Source of the DNA: Hyphomicrobiaceae bacterium
GTDB lineage: Bacteria > Pseudomonadota > Alphaproteobacteria > Rhizobiales > Hyphomicrobiaceae
Direction of reading: 5' to 3'
Assembly: GCA_016793635.1 (NCBI GenBank)
Contig: JAEUMD010000011.1
Span: 186,001 to 250,000 of the forward strand
DNA: 64,000 nucleotides
Shown here piece after piece: positions 5,029-35,246 of the stretch. How positions within the stretch are numbered: the first letter of the stretch is position 1; every line of letters starts with the position of its first letter. The notes beneath the pieces were generated by a model, which saw only the letters and a program-made list of their open reading frames with translations, was not told where the DNA came from and ran no database searches. The translations under genes were made by a program, and so were the position numbers.

Positions 5029-5258
5029 AGGCTGTCGACGCCGCGCTTGCGGGCGAGTGGGACGCCGCGCACACCCTCGCCCAACGCCACGAAGGATCTC
5101 CCGTCGCCGACTGGCTGCACGCTGTCCTGCACAAGATCGAAGGCGATGCCTCCAACGCGCGCTACTGGTACGCGCGCACCCACCTCGACTTCGAACGTTT
5201 TCCCGACCCCAAGGTGGAATTGCGCGCCATCCTTCACGAACTGCACCACGAGACGTGA
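4983..5258 (+). CDS. small conserved protein overlapping queC
   Basis: A 91-residue acidic, helical protein that starts inside queC in another frame, preceded by a GAGCGAAAGG ribosome site. The sequence resembles one or two TPR/Sel1-like helical pairs: an [16 protein letters not shown] segment followed by [22 protein letters not shown]. The overlap implies translational coupling with queC. No enzymatic motif is visible. I do not know a function; a structural or adaptor role is a guess from the repeat-like helices. Confidence 0.75.
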
Positions 5259-17320: not shown

Positions 17321-18268
17321 TCAGACCGCCTCCTTGCCGTAGTAGAGCATCGAAACGTGCTCGGCCTCGGCGAAGAACAACCAGCGCTCGGTGACGAGGC
17401 CGACCACTGTCGAGCCGAGCGCGAGCAGCACGAGAGGCAACGTCAGCGGAGAGCCGACGACGAGCGTCGCCAGCAACAGGGCCGCGGGCACGACGAACAG
17501 CAGCAGATGCACCAGGCCGCGCAGCTTCTCTGCATGCTTGCGCGCGACCTCGTAGCCCATCTCGCGCATGACGAAGTTGGCCATCGTGTGCGGCGGATCG
17601 AGCGGGCGCACCTTGCCGAACCGGCCGAGACCGGTCGCGGCGCCGACAGTGTAGGTACGCTTCTCGCCCGCGACGGTGGACCAGTAGAGCGACTTCAGCA
17701 CGAAGCCGGCTGCGATGGCAGCAACCGACAGCCACACAGCCCACGACGGAACGCCCTCGAAGATCGCGAGCAGCAGTGTCAGCAGCACCGCGCCGCTGGC
17801 GAGGCCGAGCGCGATGTAAACGATTGGAACGAGCGGCTGATACCAGGCGCGGATGGTCGGCAGCGAAGCGTATATCATGCCGGTGGTGTAGATCGTGATG
17901 ACGGCGAGAACAGCCGCGACGACGCCGGCAACGGCAACCGCGCCGTCGGTTATTCCCATGATGCCCCAGCCGATGCCCAGGACGCCGGTCGGGATATACG
18001 TCAGCACCGCCGAGACGCCCTCGCGCGACAGCCAAGACGAGCGCCATTGCGAGAACGCGCGCCACGCGCGCTCGGGGCGGCCGAGATGGAAGGTCGACGA
18101 CATCAAGCCGGCGCTGAGCAACACGACGGCGAGACCGACGCCGAAGAAGCCGAACCACTGCGACTTCGGCAACAGCTCGAGCGCGTTGCCGAGACCGAGC
18201 CAGGCGAGCAGGCCGAGACCGGCGCCTGAAGCAGTGGTGAAGAAAATGACCGAGTAGGCGGGATGCAT
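17321..18268 (-). CDS. soeC: SoeC: DmsC-type membrane anchor of sulfite dehydrogenase
   Basis: A 315-residue integral membrane protein of the DmsC/PsrC-like NrfD superfamily with about eight hydrophobic helices. It opens MHPAYSVIFFTTASGAGLGLLA and contains the family motif SSTFHLGRPERAWRAFSQWRSSWLSREG near residues 57-85. It anchors the catalytic subunits and passes electrons to the quinone pool. GGAGA precedes the ATG at 18268, 20 bp after soeB. The gene order A-B-C and the untagged A subunit argue for SoeC rather than the DMSO reductase anchor. Confidence 0.85.
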   Translation of the reverse strand: MHPAYSVIFFTTASGAGLGLLAWLGLGNALELLPKSQWFGFFGVGLAVVLLSAGLMSSTFHLGRPERAWRAFSQWRSSWLSREGVSAVLTYIPTGVLGIGWGIMGITDGAVAVAGVVAAVLAVITIYTTGMIYASLPTIRAWYQPLVPIVYIALGLASGAVLLTLLLAIFEGVPSWAVWLSVAAIAAGFVLKSLYWSTVAGEKRTYTVGAATGLGRFGKVRPLDPPHTMANFVMREMGYEVARKHAEKLRGLVHLLLFVVPAALLLATLVVGSPLTLPLVLLALGSTVVGLVTERWLFFAEAEHVSMLYYGKEAV

Positions 18269-18288: not shown

Positions 18289-19038
18289 TCAGCGCGTCAG
18301 GACCTTGTCGGCCCAGGCGAGGAACTTCTCCATGCGCGAGCCGTCCGTCGCCATGATCGGCGCCTTAGCCTTGGCGTCGTTGTTGGTGACGGCGTCGCGC
18401 CGCGGCCGCGGCGGCAGGTACTTGTTGACCGGCTTGTAGCCGATGTCCGGCAGCAGGTCGTAGCCGCCGCGCTCCTTCACGAGCTTCGAGATTTTGCTCT
18501 TGGGATCGCCGAGATCGCCGAAGTGGCGAGCACCCGTCGGACAGGCACGCACGCACGACGGGACGCGGTCCTCCTCCTTGAGATGCGGGTTGTAGATGCG
18601 GTCAACACAGAGCGTGCACTTGCGCATGACGCCAACCGCGTAATCGTATTCGCGCGCACCGTAAGGACACGCCCACGAGCACAGCTTGCAGCCGATGCAC
18701 ATGTCCGGGTTGACGAGCACGATGCCGTCCTCGGCGCGCTTATAGGAGGCGCCGGTCGGGCAGACCGTGACGCATGCAGGCGTCTCGCAGTGAAGGCACG
18801 AGCGCGGGAAGTGCACCGTGCGCGAGCGACCCTCGCCCTCCACCTCGTAGGAGTGGATGCGGTTCAGCCAGGTGCCGTGCGGGTCCGCACCATAGGGCTC
18901 CTGATCGGACAGGGGCGCCGAATAGCCGCCCGTGTTCCATTCCTTGCAGCTCGTCGCGCAGGCATGGCAGCCGACGCAGATGTCGAGATCGATCACGAGC
19001 CCGAGCTTCTTCTCGGTCGTCTCCGGAAGCGTTGTCAT
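18289..19038 (-). CDS. soeB: SoeB: four-cluster ferredoxin subunit
   Basis: A 249-residue iron-sulfur protein that wires the molybdenum subunit to the membrane anchor. Four cysteine groups are visible in order: CVGCHACATSC, CLHCETPACVTVC, CIGCKLCSWAC and CTLCVDRI...CVRAC, enough for four [4Fe-4S] clusters. The start at 19038 overlaps the soeA stop as ATGA, so the two are translationally coupled. There is no signal peptide. Length and order match SoeB of the SoeABC sulfite dehydrogenase; DmsB and PhsB are close relatives, so the assignment rests partly on context. Confidence 0.85.
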   Translation of the reverse strand: MTTLPETTEKKLGLVIDLDICVGCHACATSCKEWNTGGYSAPLSDQEPYGADPHGTWLNRIHSYEVEGEGRSRTVHFPRSCLHCETPACVTVCPTGASYKRAEDGIVLVNPDMCIGCKLCSWACPYGAREYDYAVGVMRKCTLCVDRIYNPHLKEEDRVPSCVRACPTGARHFGDLGDPKSKISKLVKERGGYDLLPDIGYKPVNKYLPPRPRRDAVTNNDAKAKAPIMATDGSRMEKFLAWADKVLTR

Positions 19039-21911
19039 TTGCCGGCCTCCCGGAAGCTCGCGCCGAACATCGAAACATCGGGCAGGACACGGCCCGAAGG
19101 ATTGACCAGCCGCTCGAAGCGCGGTGACGTCTCGTGGGCTTCGTCGGGCCGGGCCGGCTCGATCGCGACGCGCAGGTCGTACCACGCAGCCTGGCCGGTG
19201 ACGGGGTCGGAGTTAGAGAAGCGATAGCCGCCCGCGCGCTCGGGCAGAAGTTCGCTGATGAGATGGTTGAGGAGGAAGCCCTGCGTCGCCTCCGGCGCGT
19301 CGTCGGCGAGGTTCCAGGCGCCCGACCGCTTGCCGATCGCGTTCCAGGTCCACACCGTCTTCTCGTTGACGCCGTCCATCAGGCGAACCTGGCAGCGCAC
19401 GCGGCCAATCTCGCTCTTCACCCACACCCAGCCGTCATCCTTGACGCCGAGCTGACGCGCCAACTCGTAGTGCATGTAGAGGCGGTTGGCGGCCGTGATC
19501 TGGCGCAGCCAGGCGTTCTGCGAGCCCCACGAGTGATACATGTGCATCGGGCGCTGCGTCACCGCGTAGAACGGGAACTTCGCCTCGTCCACCAGAGAGC
19601 CTTCGAACGGCTTGTACCAGAAGGGCAGCGGATCGAAGAACGCTTCGATGCGCTTTCGGTGTGACTCGGGCGGCTTCACGGCTCCATGCCCGCGCGCGGC
19701 GAGACGGAACTTCTGCATCGGCTCGAGGTAGAGCTGGAAGATGATCGGATCGGACGAGCCGATGAAGCCGACGCTCTTCGCCCACTCCAGATAATCCTTG
19801 TTGGCGTGCTTGAAGTAGCGCTGCTCGGGCTTGAGGTGGTGCGCATAGAAGCAGCCGTTGGCGATGTACTGGTCGAGCTGCCGGGGATTGACCTCGCCCT
19901 TGCCGTAGCTCTTGCCGTCCTTGCCGCGGAAACCGGCGAGCGGGCCGAGGCCCGGTGCGCGCTCGTGGTTGACGATGTAGTCGGCATAGCCGCCCGGGTA
20001 TTTCGGCTGCCCGTCGTCGTTGACGAAGCCCGGCAGCTTGAGACGCGCGCCGAGATCGATCAGCACGGTCTGGAAACCGCGCACGTCACGGTCGGGCTGC
20101 ACCACCGGCTGGCGGATCGAATCCGCAGCCGCGTCCGGCTCGGAGACTGGGCGGTCGAGCAGCGAGATGCAGTCCCAGCGCTCGAGGTAGGTGGTATCGG
20201 GCAGGATCAGGTCGGCGTATGGCACCATCTCCGAGAAGTAGCTGTCGGAGTAGATGATCTTCGGGATCTTGTAGTCGCCGGTCTTCGGGTCCTTGTCCGT
20301 CAGGTACTTCAGCACCGCCGGAACGTTCATCGTCGAGTTCCAGCTCATGTTCGCCATGTACATGAACAGGACGTCGACGGGATACGGATCACCGAGCGCC
20401 GCGTTGGTGATGACCATGTGCATCAGGCCGTGGGCGGCAAGGGGCGCGTCCCACGAGTAGGCCTTGTCGATGCGCTCGGGATTGCCCTCGGCATCGACGA
20501 GGAGATCCTCGGGCCCCATCGGGAATCCGAGCGGCGGGCCGGTCAGCGGCGTCATCGGCTTCACCGTGCCGGCCTTGCCCGCGGGCTTCAGCGGCGGCGG
20601 CGTCGGCCGCGGATAGGGCGGCTTGTAACGGAAGCCGCCGGGGCAATCGATGGAGCCGAGCAGGATCTGCACGAAGTGAAGCAGGCGAGCCGTGTGGAAG
20701 CCGTTGGAGTGGGCCGAGATACCACGCATGGCGTGCATCGAGATCGGGCGGCCGATCATCTTCTCGTGGCGGCGGCCGGCCCAATCGGTCCACGGCACGT
20801 CGAGCACGACCTCCTGCTTGAAGGCGACGTCGGCGAGCTCCTGGGCGATACGGCGCGTGGTGGCGGCCGGGATGCCGCTCTCCTTTTCGGCACGCTCGGG
20901 CGAGTATTCCGCGGAGAGATAGCGCTCGGCGAGGATCTGGAACGACGGCACGGCGGTGCGGCCGTCGGCGAGCGTGTACGAGCCCGTGAGAGCCGGCGTC
21001 ACGTCGACGCCGGTCGCGTCTGCCAGGGCACCCTTCGTCTTGTCGAAGCAGAGCGGCTTGCCGTTGGCGTCACGCGCGAACAGTCCGTCGTCGGCGGCGC
21101 CAGGATCGCGGATCACCAACCATGGCGCGTTGGTGTAGCGCACGAGGAACGGCAGATCGACCTGCTCGGTGCGCAGAAGCTCGTGGATGAGCGCGCCGAT
21201 GAACACGCCATCGGTACCGGGCTTTAGGCCGATCCACTCGTCGGCGATCGCCTGATACCCGGTGCGCACGGGATTGACAGTGACGACCTTGACGCCGCGC
21301 TCTTTGAGTTTGCCGAGACCCATCTTGATCGGGTTCGAGGCATGATCCTCGGCGACGCCGAAGAGCATGAAATACTTCGTGCGCTCCCAGTCGGGATCAC
21401 CGAACTCCCAGAACGCGCCGCCGAAGGTGTAAAGGCCGCCCGCCGCCATGTTCACCGAGCAGAAGCCGCCGTGCGCGGCGAAGTTCAACGTGCCGAACTG
21501 CTGCGCCCACCAGCCGGTGAGCGACTGCGACTGGTCGCGGCCAGTGAAGAACGCGAGCTTCTTGGGATCGGTCTTTCGCACGTCGCCGAGCCACTTGGCC
21601 GCCGTCTCCAGCGCCTCGTCCCACGAGATCTCGACATACTCTCCCGAACCGCGCTCACCGACCCGCTTCAGCGGCGCCTTGAGGCGTGCCGGCGAATAGT
21701 GCTGCATGATGCCGGCGGAGCCCTTGCCGCACAGCACACCCTTGTTGACGGGGTGGTCGCGGTTGCCCTCGATGTAACGGACCTTGCCGTTCTTCAGGTA
21801 CACCTTGATGCCGCAGCGGCAGGCGCACATGTAGCATGTCGAGGTCTTGATCTCGTCCGCAGGCGATACGTCGATTGCCACGTGCGGCTCGTTCGACGAC
21901 GAAATGCTCAT
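19035..21911 (-). CDS. soeA: SoeA: molybdopterin catalytic subunit of cytoplasmic sulfite dehydrogenase
   Basis: A 958-residue DMSO-reductase-family enzyme. The N-terminal [4Fe-4S] motif is exact: Cys26-x2-Cys29-x3-Cys33-x27-Cys61. The likely molybdenum ligand is Cys151 in HGGFCSVNM, as in SoeA, PhsA and PsrA but not DmsA (Ser). No Tat signal precedes the cluster, so the enzyme should face the cytoplasm. This is the key difference from periplasmic thiosulfate/polysulfide/DMSO reductases and fits SoeABC, which oxidises sulfite to sulfate. The start at 21911 has a strong GGGGAGGAAG site. A possible persulfide-repressor operator lies 120 bp upstream. Confidence 0.85.
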   Translation of the reverse strand: MSISSSNEPHVAIDVSPADEIKTSTCYMCACRCGIKVYLKNGKVRYIEGNRDHPVNKGVLCGKGSAGIMQHYSPARLKAPLKRVGERGSGEYVEISWDEALETAAKWLGDVRKTDPKKLAFFTGRDQSQSLTGWWAQQFGTLNFAAHGGFCSVNMAAGGLYTFGGAFWEFGDPDWERTKYFMLFGVAEDHASNPIKMGLGKLKERGVKVVTVNPVRTGYQAIADEWIGLKPGTDGVFIGALIHELLRTEQVDLPFLVRYTNAPWLVIRDPGAADDGLFARDANGKPLCFDKTKGALADATGVDVTPALTGSYTLADGRTAVPSFQILAERYLSAEYSPERAEKESGIPAATTRRIAQELADVAFKQEVVLDVPWTDWAGRRHEKMIGRPISMHAMRGISAHSNGFHTARLLHFVQILLGSIDCPGGFRYKPPYPRPTPPPLKPAGKAGTVKPMTPLTGPPLGFPMGPEDLLVDAEGNPERIDKAYSWDAPLAAHGLMHMVITNAALGDPYPVDVLFMYMANMSWNSTMNVPAVLKYLTDKDPKTGDYKIPKIIYSDSYFSEMVPYADLILPDTTYLERWDCISLLDRPVSEPDAAADSIRQPVVQPDRDVRGFQTVLIDLGARLKLPGFVNDDGQPKYPGGYADYIVNHERAPGLGPLAGFRGKDGKSYGKGEVNPRQLDQYIANGCFYAHHLKPEQRYFKHANKDYLEWAKSVGFIGSSDPIIFQLYLEPMQKFRLAARGHGAVKPPESHRKRIEAFFDPLPFWYKPFEGSLVDEAKFPFYAVTQRPMHMYHSWGSQNAWLRQITAANRLYMHYELARQLGVKDDGWVWVKSEIGRVRCQVRLMDGVNEKTVWTWNAIGKRSGAWNLADDAPEATQGFLLNHLISELLPERAGGYRFSNSDPVTGQAAWYDLRVAIEPARPDEAHETSPRFERLVNPSGRVLPDVSMFGASFREAGK

Positions 21912-22031
21912 CAAGCTTCCTCCCCTTGGCGGCCGGCTTCGTTCGGTCCGGTCCTGTCGAGGCACAACGACATGCTGCTCGACAAGCCGCCCCGAGGACG
22001 GCGTCGCGAAAACAGATTGGTTCGCGCCTCA

Positions 22032-22049
22032 TATTCAATATGTCGAATA
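22032..22049. promoter_or_regulatory. ATTC-N8-GAAT palindrome upstream of soeABC
   Basis: TATTC, 8 bases, GAATA: perfect 5-base half-sites in an AT-rich island within GC-rich DNA, 121 bp before the soeA start. ATTC-N8-GAAT is, as I recall, the consensus for SqrR/BigR-type ArsR repressors that sense sulfide or persulfide. No arsR-type gene is in the window. Confidence 0.55.
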
Positions 22050-22504
22050 CATGGCGTGACGGCGTTCAAGCAAGCCCCTTGGCGGCAGTCCACGCGGGAA
22101 CGCACCGGGAAAGCGGCGCCCGACACGCGCCCGGTGCCCAACCCGCCGCAACGCGACAATAGCGGCCAACCGCCTGTTTCTCGACTGTTATGCGTTCCGG
22201 CCCGGCGACATCGTCGGCGACGTCCGGCTGCCGGAGCACCCACCCGGGCGGTTTGTCGCATCGCTCGCACACGCCGCCAGCGCGCTCCGGTTTGGTGCTC
22301 GCCGGATCGCCACCGCCATCGGCACCGCGATTGCACCGCCGGTTTCGCCCTACGCTCCTGCTCGCATCAAGAAAGTTACCGGGCGACCAAGTGCGCTGCC
22401 ATCTCGTGCGATCCGATGCTCTCGCAAGACGCCCTCTCACGTTTCGCCGAAAGCGTGAAAGCCAAGCACAGCTCATGGTTTAAAGTCCTCCTCGCCACGG
22501 CTAT

Positions 22505-22522
22505 GGAACAAGTGCTTGTCCC
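22505..22522. promoter_or_regulatory. inverted repeat upstream of the crotonase gene
   Basis: GGAACAAG-TG-CTTGTCCC, seven of eight positions paired, 52 bp before the 22574 start. It could be an operator for that gene. The binding protein is unknown. Confidence 0.3.
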
Positions 22523-22573
22523 GCGCAGCCCCAAGCACGCGAGTGCCCCACGCACGCTCGCCGTCAGTGAAAG

Positions 22574-23365
22574 ATGCCAATGTCCTCAGATCACCTGCTT
22601 TACGAGACACTGCCTGGCGGCATTGCCCTGGCGACACTCAACCGCCCCGAGGCACGCAACGCCCTCACGTTCGAGATGTATGAGCGCTTGGCCGATGTTT
22701 GCCGCGCGATCACTCCAGGCGGCCCGGTGAAGGCCTTGATCGTGACGGGGGCGGGAACCAAGGCTTTCGCCGCCGGCACGGACATCTCCGCATTCCGCGA
22801 TTTCCGCACCCCCGAGCAGGCCATAGCCTACGAGCGCAAGATGGACGGCGTGCTGGGTGCCATCGAGACCTGCGCCGTGCCGACGATCGCCGCGATCTCG
22901 GGCGCCTGCACCGGCGGCGGCGGCGCCATCGCGGCGTGTTGCGACCTGCGTATCGCCACCCGCGACATGCGTTTCGGGTTTCCGATCGCTCGCACGCTCG
23001 GCAACTGCCTGTCGATGACCAATCTCGCCCGCCTCGCCGCTCTGATCGGCGCCGCGCGGACCAAGGAGATCCTGTTCACGGCACGCCTCATCGAGGCGTC
23101 CGAGGCGTTGGCCTGCGGGCTCGTCAGCGAAGTGCTCGACGATCATGCGGCGCTGATGCAGCGGGCGGGCGACCTCGCCCGCCAACTCACCACCCATGCG
23201 CCGCTCACTTTGCGCGCCACGAAGGAAGCGCTGCGGCGCCTGCGCGACGCAGGCGAGCCGGGCCGCGACCACGATCTGATCGCTCTCTGCTATGCGTCGG
23301 AGGACTTTCGCGAGGGCATGGATGCCTTCCTCGCCAAGCGACAACCGGAATGGAAGGGCCAGTGA
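22574..23365 (+). CDS. enoyl-CoA hydratase/isomerase (crotonase) family protein
   Basis: A 263-residue crotonase-fold protein acting on a CoA thioester. Both oxyanion-hole segments are clear: KAFAAGTDISAF (about 65-76) and SGACTGGGGAIAACCDL (about 108-124). The position of the first catalytic glutamate of true hydratases (usually F-P-E) reads FGFPIARTLGN here, so a classical hydratase reaction is doubtful. Isomerase, thioesterase-like or decarboxylase chemistry is possible. GTGAAAG precedes the ATG; a second ATG two codons in is an alternative. A small hydrolase gene follows 18 bp later. Confidence 0.85.
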   Translation: MPMSSDHLLYETLPGGIALATLNRPEARNALTFEMYERLADVCRAITPGGPVKALIVTGAGTKAFAAGTDISAFRDFRTPEQAIAYERKMDGVLGAIETCAVPTIAAISGACTGGGGAIAACCDLRIATRDMRFGFPIARTLGNCLSMTNLARLAALIGAARTKEILFTARLIEASEALACGLVSEVLDDHAALMQRAGDLARQLTTHAPLTLRATKEALRRLRDAGEPGRDHDLIALCYASEDFREGMDAFLAKRQPEWKGQ

Positions 23366-34785: not shown

Positions 34786-35246
34786 CGCCGCACCCCTCGC
34801 CTCAACTCTCGCCGTATCTCACTCACCCAATCCCCCGAACGTCACGACCGCAGCGGCCCCCACCCCGCGGCATGAACTCCGACGGCCCAGGCCGCCGAAT
34901 GCGCCGCGAGTCCGAACACTCCCGACGCAACCTGCGACCGAACGGCTTTGGGCGAACAGCGCCTTCGTCACGTATTGCACCGTGAAAGAGGCTCAGCGGA
35001 AATTGTCCGATGGTCGCAGAACGACTGTTTCGTTATTGTTCTTAGGTGCCACTTGAAATCACCATTGCGTGAACATGGCATTCGAAAGTGTGAATTTTGC
35101 TCTGCCGTTAGGCACTCGCCCGGCAACGGGGCAGCAATCCGGGCGCACAATTCACCTCGCCTCGGTGCACGCACCTTTTTCGGTTGGCAGGTCGGCGCAA
35201 ACCGTGAATTGAAGGCCGAAAGGCTTCGAATATTCCGGGAGCGGCT
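34786..35246. other. intergenic region between the LOV gene and an SDR gene
   Basis: 461 bp with no credible gene. The half nearer the SDR gene is less GC-rich (about 35015-35100), as expected of a promoter. GGGAGCGG lies just before the SDR start. I see no defined operator. Confidence 0.4.

Follow-up and report, generated by a model that had tools for sequence, protein, structure and literature searches.

Does the palindrome that precedes the predicted sulfite dehydrogenase genes soeABC of a Hyphomicrobiaceae bacterium serve as the operator of a repressor of the SqrR/SoxR type, and which other genes would then answer to the same signal? The window, by which we mean the whole stretch of 64,000 nucleotides that was analysed, belongs to genome G000; G001, G002 and G003 are the other three genomes of the genus.

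The palindrome upstream of soeABC

The sequence TATTCAATATGTCGAATA occupies positions 22032-22049 of the window, where it was picked out as an operator candidate, with no strand assigned, by pattern search and by its recurrence in relatives. It is the perfect TATTC-N8-GAATA that the original prediction had placed before soeA, and in its extended form it reads CATATTC-N8-GAATACATG. A gap of 120 bp separates it from the ATG of soeA (complement of 21909-21911). A promoter scan of 21900-22600 recognised no sigma-70-like promoter. The consensus ATTC-N8-GAAT, which the original prediction had named, is in print: the available text of PMC9774250 cites it as the operator consensus of SqrR in Rhodobacter capsulatus, with the same core and spacing as the window site.

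The genes that follow lie on the complementary strand. The first, soeA (19035..21911), codes for a molybdopterin catalytic subunit of 958 aa with matches to Molybdopterin, Molybdop_Fe4S4 and Molydop_binding; the second, soeB, codes for an iron-sulfur subunit (Fer4_11) and is listed as the open reading frame 18289..19185, although its true start is probably internal to this frame, near the end of soeA. The third, soeC (17321..18268), encodes a DmsC/NrfD-like membrane anchor (DmsC, 4.4e-16). Inspection by eye revealed no twin-arginine signal in SoeA, as in the SoeA described in the available part of PMC6620896. The more specific molybdoenzyme models listed all fell below their cut-offs for the soe subunits. 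A presumably cytoplasmic 4Fe-4S molybdoprotein without a TAT signal, an iron-sulfur subunit and a DmsC-like anchor are joined in one operon, and SoeABC is a predicted sulfite dehydrogenase, its name coming from the original prediction together with family resemblance and operon make-up. Gene calls throughout are crude, being based on codon-position GC, and the names SoxR-like, SoeB, Qmo, sHdr and xsc are provisional assignments that draw on family matches. On the other side of the palindrome, at a distance of 524 bp, an enoyl-CoA hydratase gene (22574..23365, plus strand), identified as an open reading frame and by comparison with congeners, runs divergently to soeA.

The full 10-base form TATTC-N8-GAATA occurs once in the window versus not at all in 100 shuffles. 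The 8-base core ATTC-N8-GAAT gives two matches versus a shuffle mean of 0.75, and two or more were reached in 17/100 shuffles. The whole genome (3.82 Mb) contains 21 copies of this core, fewer than the number obtained by scaling the window shuffle rate to the genome; the core pattern read backwards, used as a control, has one genomic match, but it is a different and rarer word. Given these 21 copies and the shuffle mean, most genomic 8-base cores are chance occurrences, and since the genome-wide count does not exceed chance the core is weak evidence by itself. The window's other core, at 35080-35095, has poor flanks and is followed after 151 bp by a short-chain dehydrogenase-like gene; it scores near zero outside the core, its partner in a congener is weak and differently placed, and we set it aside as unrelated or, probably, as chance.

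Recurrence before soeA and other sulfur genes

Nine sulfur-gene sites, all from other genomes, were used to build a position weight matrix, with which the 21 cores of G000 were scored on the positions outside the core. The window site, which was outside the training set for this ranking, came second with 11.6, behind an intergenic palindrome flanked by the genes for an alpha/beta hydrolase and a DUF2147-like small protein (13.3) and ahead of the soxY site (3.6) and a second palindrome in the hydrolase region (1.7); the remaining 17 cores scored below zero. This and the other matrices were built on 9 to 11 sites picked by gene context, and their scores are accordingly rough. The window site belonged to the training set for the scans of dsrA, soxA and the soeA genes of the genus.

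Spacing was examined in the region from 450 to 30 bp before residue 19 of SoeA at 110 loci. The exact core with N8 was present in nine of these upstream regions, a count that includes the window (L018) and its near twin L019, while spacings of 4-7 and 9-12 together yielded six matches. Leaving out the window and the near twin, seven N8 cores remain (Poisson P 1.4e-5 versus the mean of the other spacings). The far flank, 421.9 kb in all, contains one N8 core and three to six matches for each other spacing. A further matrix, to which no soe site contributed, was trained on 11 sites, three of them from G000 (soxY, hydrolase region and dsrA). At a score of at least 16 it recognised 10 of 108 soeA upstream regions, i.e., the 110 without the window and its near twin, versus 1 of 567 length-matched flank segments (Fisher P 7e-8), and ten shuffled matrices each found zero or one region at score 16. 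The window site itself reached 22.9 by this soe-free matrix; no flank segment attained 18, and one shuffled matrix reached 20 on a single occasion.

The remaining 98 of the 108 sampled soeA upstream regions scored below 16. Within the genus the core precedes soeA in three of four genomes (G000 included), no site being found upstream of soeA in the congener G003, and sites are also associated with soeA in scattered other genera. Recurrence in relatives, on which the original prediction depended, therefore holds for two of the three other genomes of the genus and for some other genera, and fails for most of the soeA genes sampled.

The same site was found before sox genes, where a search had been proposed. 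In G000 the exact core precedes soxYZ, in a region divergent to a flavoprotein gene. Among the 30 soxY loci returned, one of which had 348 bp of upstream DNA, seven carry the core within 700 bp before soxY, versus two matches over eight other spacings; every one of the four genus members has it, at a distance of 217 to 250 bp upstream of the aligned start. Upstream of dsrA a core with one mismatch is present in 4/4 genomes of the genus (scoring between 17.6 and 21.8), in G000 at L275:5512-5527 on contig C9. A TauD-family dioxygenase gene (L275:5595-6692) runs divergently from the region that holds this dsrA site. Elsewhere in the 17.5 kb dsr stretch of G000, two further places reach 15.5 and 16.8, a little lower than the dsrA sites. 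No site with a score of at least 9 was found upstream of soxAXB in G000 or G002; soxA of G003 is preceded by a variant site that scores 18.9.

A chance palindrome in an AT-rich stretch would be in keeping with the unremarkable genomic count of the core and with the 17 cores that fall below zero by the held-out matrix. It is contradicted by the N8-specific enrichment before soeA and soxY, by the rank of the window site under the held-out matrix and by the flank and shuffled-matrix controls; we reject a chance origin and consider it hardly credible. From this comparison, i.e., spacing, held-out rank and controls, we surmise that the window copy is very probably a genuine SqrR/SoxR-type operator, common to genes of sulfur oxidation.

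A real site might instead serve the divergent enoyl-CoA hydratase gene and not soe, and it does lie in the intergenic region divergent to that gene, in G002 as well as in G000. The site is nevertheless 120 bp from soeA versus 524 bp from the hydratase gene, the relocated soeA of G002 has a site of its own with no hydratase gene called alongside, and the site recurs at some soeA genes in other genera. We regard service to the hydratase gene as very improbable, and take soeABC to be the likely target.

The hydrolase/DUF2147-like region carries the palindrome twice in G000 (L137:4929-4944 and 5226-5241, corresponding to G000:C11:214928 and 215225), once in G002 (L206:2268) and once in G003 (L262:1522), with an identical 16-mer in G000 and G002; it is a predicted conserved member of the regulon. 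A gene nearby (L137:6079-7863) reads like sulfoacetaldehyde acetyltransferase, presumably xsc, and its product might also supply the cell with sulfite. The comparison of cores between congeners covered 36 of the 38 in G002 (two near contig starts were left out) and all 26 in G003; cores of G001 were listed in part, and those of G001, G022 and G009 stood outside it. Three pairs, L143/L216, L141/L217 and L138/L237, have a flanking gene in common, but the core is intergenic in G000 and intragenic in G002, and they were discarded as not conserved.

Candidate repressors

The search for ArsR/SqrR homologues in the genome, on which the proposal likewise hinged, returned two ArsR proteins, both with the two sensor cysteines of SqrR/BigR. 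The first, a SoxR-like protein (G000:C11:16973-17383, minus strand; HTH_5), is encoded on contig C11 in a group with soxZ, soxY, a flavoprotein gene and a cytochrome gene. It aligns to the solved SqrR structure (6O8N group) with both cysteines matched, the entry 6O8N being named SqrR in the available text of PMC9774590. Against the BigR model it scores 64 bits (8.9e-18), the curated cut-off being 155. The second, BigR-like protein also remains below this cut-off, although it is closer to the model; its gene adjoins an SQR-like gene and an RND pump on contig C25. Among 60 relatives, 55 have BigR-family matches at E 1e-8 or better, two of them above the curated cut-off.

The operator could be genuine and yet be read by the BigR-like protein of contig C25, or by both regulators; we consider this unlikely. 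In its favour, the BigR-like protein retains both cysteines and resembles the BigR model more closely than the SoxR-like protein does, and the available part of PMC12423496 describes a pair of such repressors in H. denitrificans that bind identical fragments. However, the divergent promoter of the BigR-like gene itself (L049:8980-9025, on C25) contains a palindrome with a different half-site, ATTAG-N6-CTAAT, and in G002, where sox, soeA, soeBC and sat/qmo all have sites, the search at E 1e-8 or better found no BigR-family member apart from the SoxR-like protein of the sox cluster. Because G002 offers no other such match, the regulator is most likely the SoxR-like protein of the sox cluster. 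The palindrome ATTAG-N6-CTAAT has the same 16-base geometry and is perhaps a variant operator. A nearly identical palindrome, ATTAGATATTGCTAAT, occurs upstream of a soeA gene of another family (L035). An ArsR gene divergent to soeA in G026 (L043) was considered as a soe regulator and rejected, its cysteine pattern appearing by eye to be of the arsenic type.

Several known systems resemble the one proposed here. As in R. capsulatus, an SqrR homologue with two cysteines accompanies the operator in G000; the SqrR of R. capsulatus, in the accounts seen in part, is tied to sulfide-dependent photosynthesis, whereas the target in G000 would be sulfite oxidation through soeABC. BigR of Xylella and YgaV of E. 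coli belong by sequence to the same repressor family as the G000 proteins, and the promoter of YgaV itself contains a sequence similar to ATTC-N8-GAAT; their targets, detoxification and anaerobic respiration genes, differ from soe (PMC9774250, available text). Control of sulfur oxidation by SoxR-type repressors in Hyphomicrobium, as stated in the original prediction, is documented: SoxR and sHdrR of H. denitrificans control the sox and lip-shdr genes (PMC12423496 and PMC10451225, available portions), and G000 likewise encodes a two-cysteine ArsR repressor together with its sox genes. H. denitrificans is said, in the part of PMC12423496 available, to lack efficient sulfite-oxidising enzymes and to possess a sulfite exporter that responds to thiosulfate independently of SoxR and sHdrR. 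G000, in contrast, has sulfite-oxidation genes that carry the operator, a DsrA, and no match to an sHdr-like query.

Among the matches listed in the full-text literature, a body of text outside which most subscription journals lie, no report of a SqrR/SoxR-type site before soe genes, or of such control over them, was found, in agreement with the original prediction. SqrR/SoxR-type control of soe is likewise absent from the available portions of PMC9769926, PMC9774590, PMC12930554, PMC6620896, PMC8147356 and PMC2864759. Within the literature searched, the soe genes would be a new addition to the targets of an established switch.

The predicted switch across the genus

We propose, with good confidence, that the palindrome is the operator of a two-cysteine ArsR repressor of the SqrR/SoxR type whose reduced form would repress soe and which persulfide would release, binding, repression and release all being inferred. 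A dimer of the reduced repressor would sit on the soeABC promoter and block transcription. As sulfane sulfur rises during the oxidation of thiosulfate or sulfide, sulfur atoms would bridge the two cysteines and the repressor would leave the DNA. SoeABC would then be made along with SoxYZ and probably Dsr, and, given this joint expression of SoeABC and SoxYZ, cytoplasmic sulfite could be oxidised as it is formed. SoxB and DsrA exceed their cut-offs in 4/4 genomes of the genus, and an sHdr-like query from G003 has no match in G000 and finds only itself; for these reasons a route from thiosulfate through Sox, Dsr in reverse and Soe to sulfate is plausible in G000.

The soe genes of G002 (L207:4262-7240 and L210:1777-2532) are divided between two contigs, with soeA on C42 and soeBC on C47, and each locus has its own palindrome. 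That of soeBC sits between soeB and the divergent counterpart of the enoyl-CoA hydratase gene of the window. Both sites fit a common frame, ATGTATTCG-N7-GAATAT-N-AG. A rapid tree of 107 SoeA proteins does not group G002 with its congeners but joins it to G022, a genome of another genus (support 100); it appears likely from this that the soeA of G002 was replaced by a foreign copy, a case of subunit replacement. The soeA genes of G002 and G022 both carry the site, and the site label (12 rows) requires at least eight changes on the SoeA tree. A further palindrome of G002 lies between sat and qmo/hdr-like genes, sat/qmo being the other known way of sulfite oxidation. In G003, palindromes precede a dsrE-shdr-like gene and a lipS1-like gene, the LipS1 and LipS2 matches being below their curated cut-offs; the targets of SoxR and sHdrR in H. 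denitrificans, as far as the available accounts go, include the lip-shdr genes.

A broader reading, which we hold to be somewhat more probable than its contrary, is that in this genus a single sulfane-sulfur repressor, encoded in the sox cluster, governs the path from thiosulfate to sulfate, the downstream module of each species carrying the operator and modules joining by acquiring it. The modules would be soeABC in G000 and G001; the relocated, foreign-looking soeA, the separate soeBC and the sat/qmo-like genes in G002; the dsrE-shdr-like and lip-like genes in G003; and dsr, with its near-consensus site, in all four. If modules do acquire the operator in this manner, the upstream signal, rather than sulfite, would switch sulfite removal. 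Sulfite is a toxic compound, and the means by which sulfur oxidisers couple its removal to its formation are of general interest. The matrix provides a means of reading the regulon from genomes, and the prediction for the organism is that soe would be induced by thiosulfate or polysulfide and not by sulfite. In G000 the oxidation of sulfite appears to be prewired to a sulfane-sulfur sensor that also faces the sox and probably the dsr genes.
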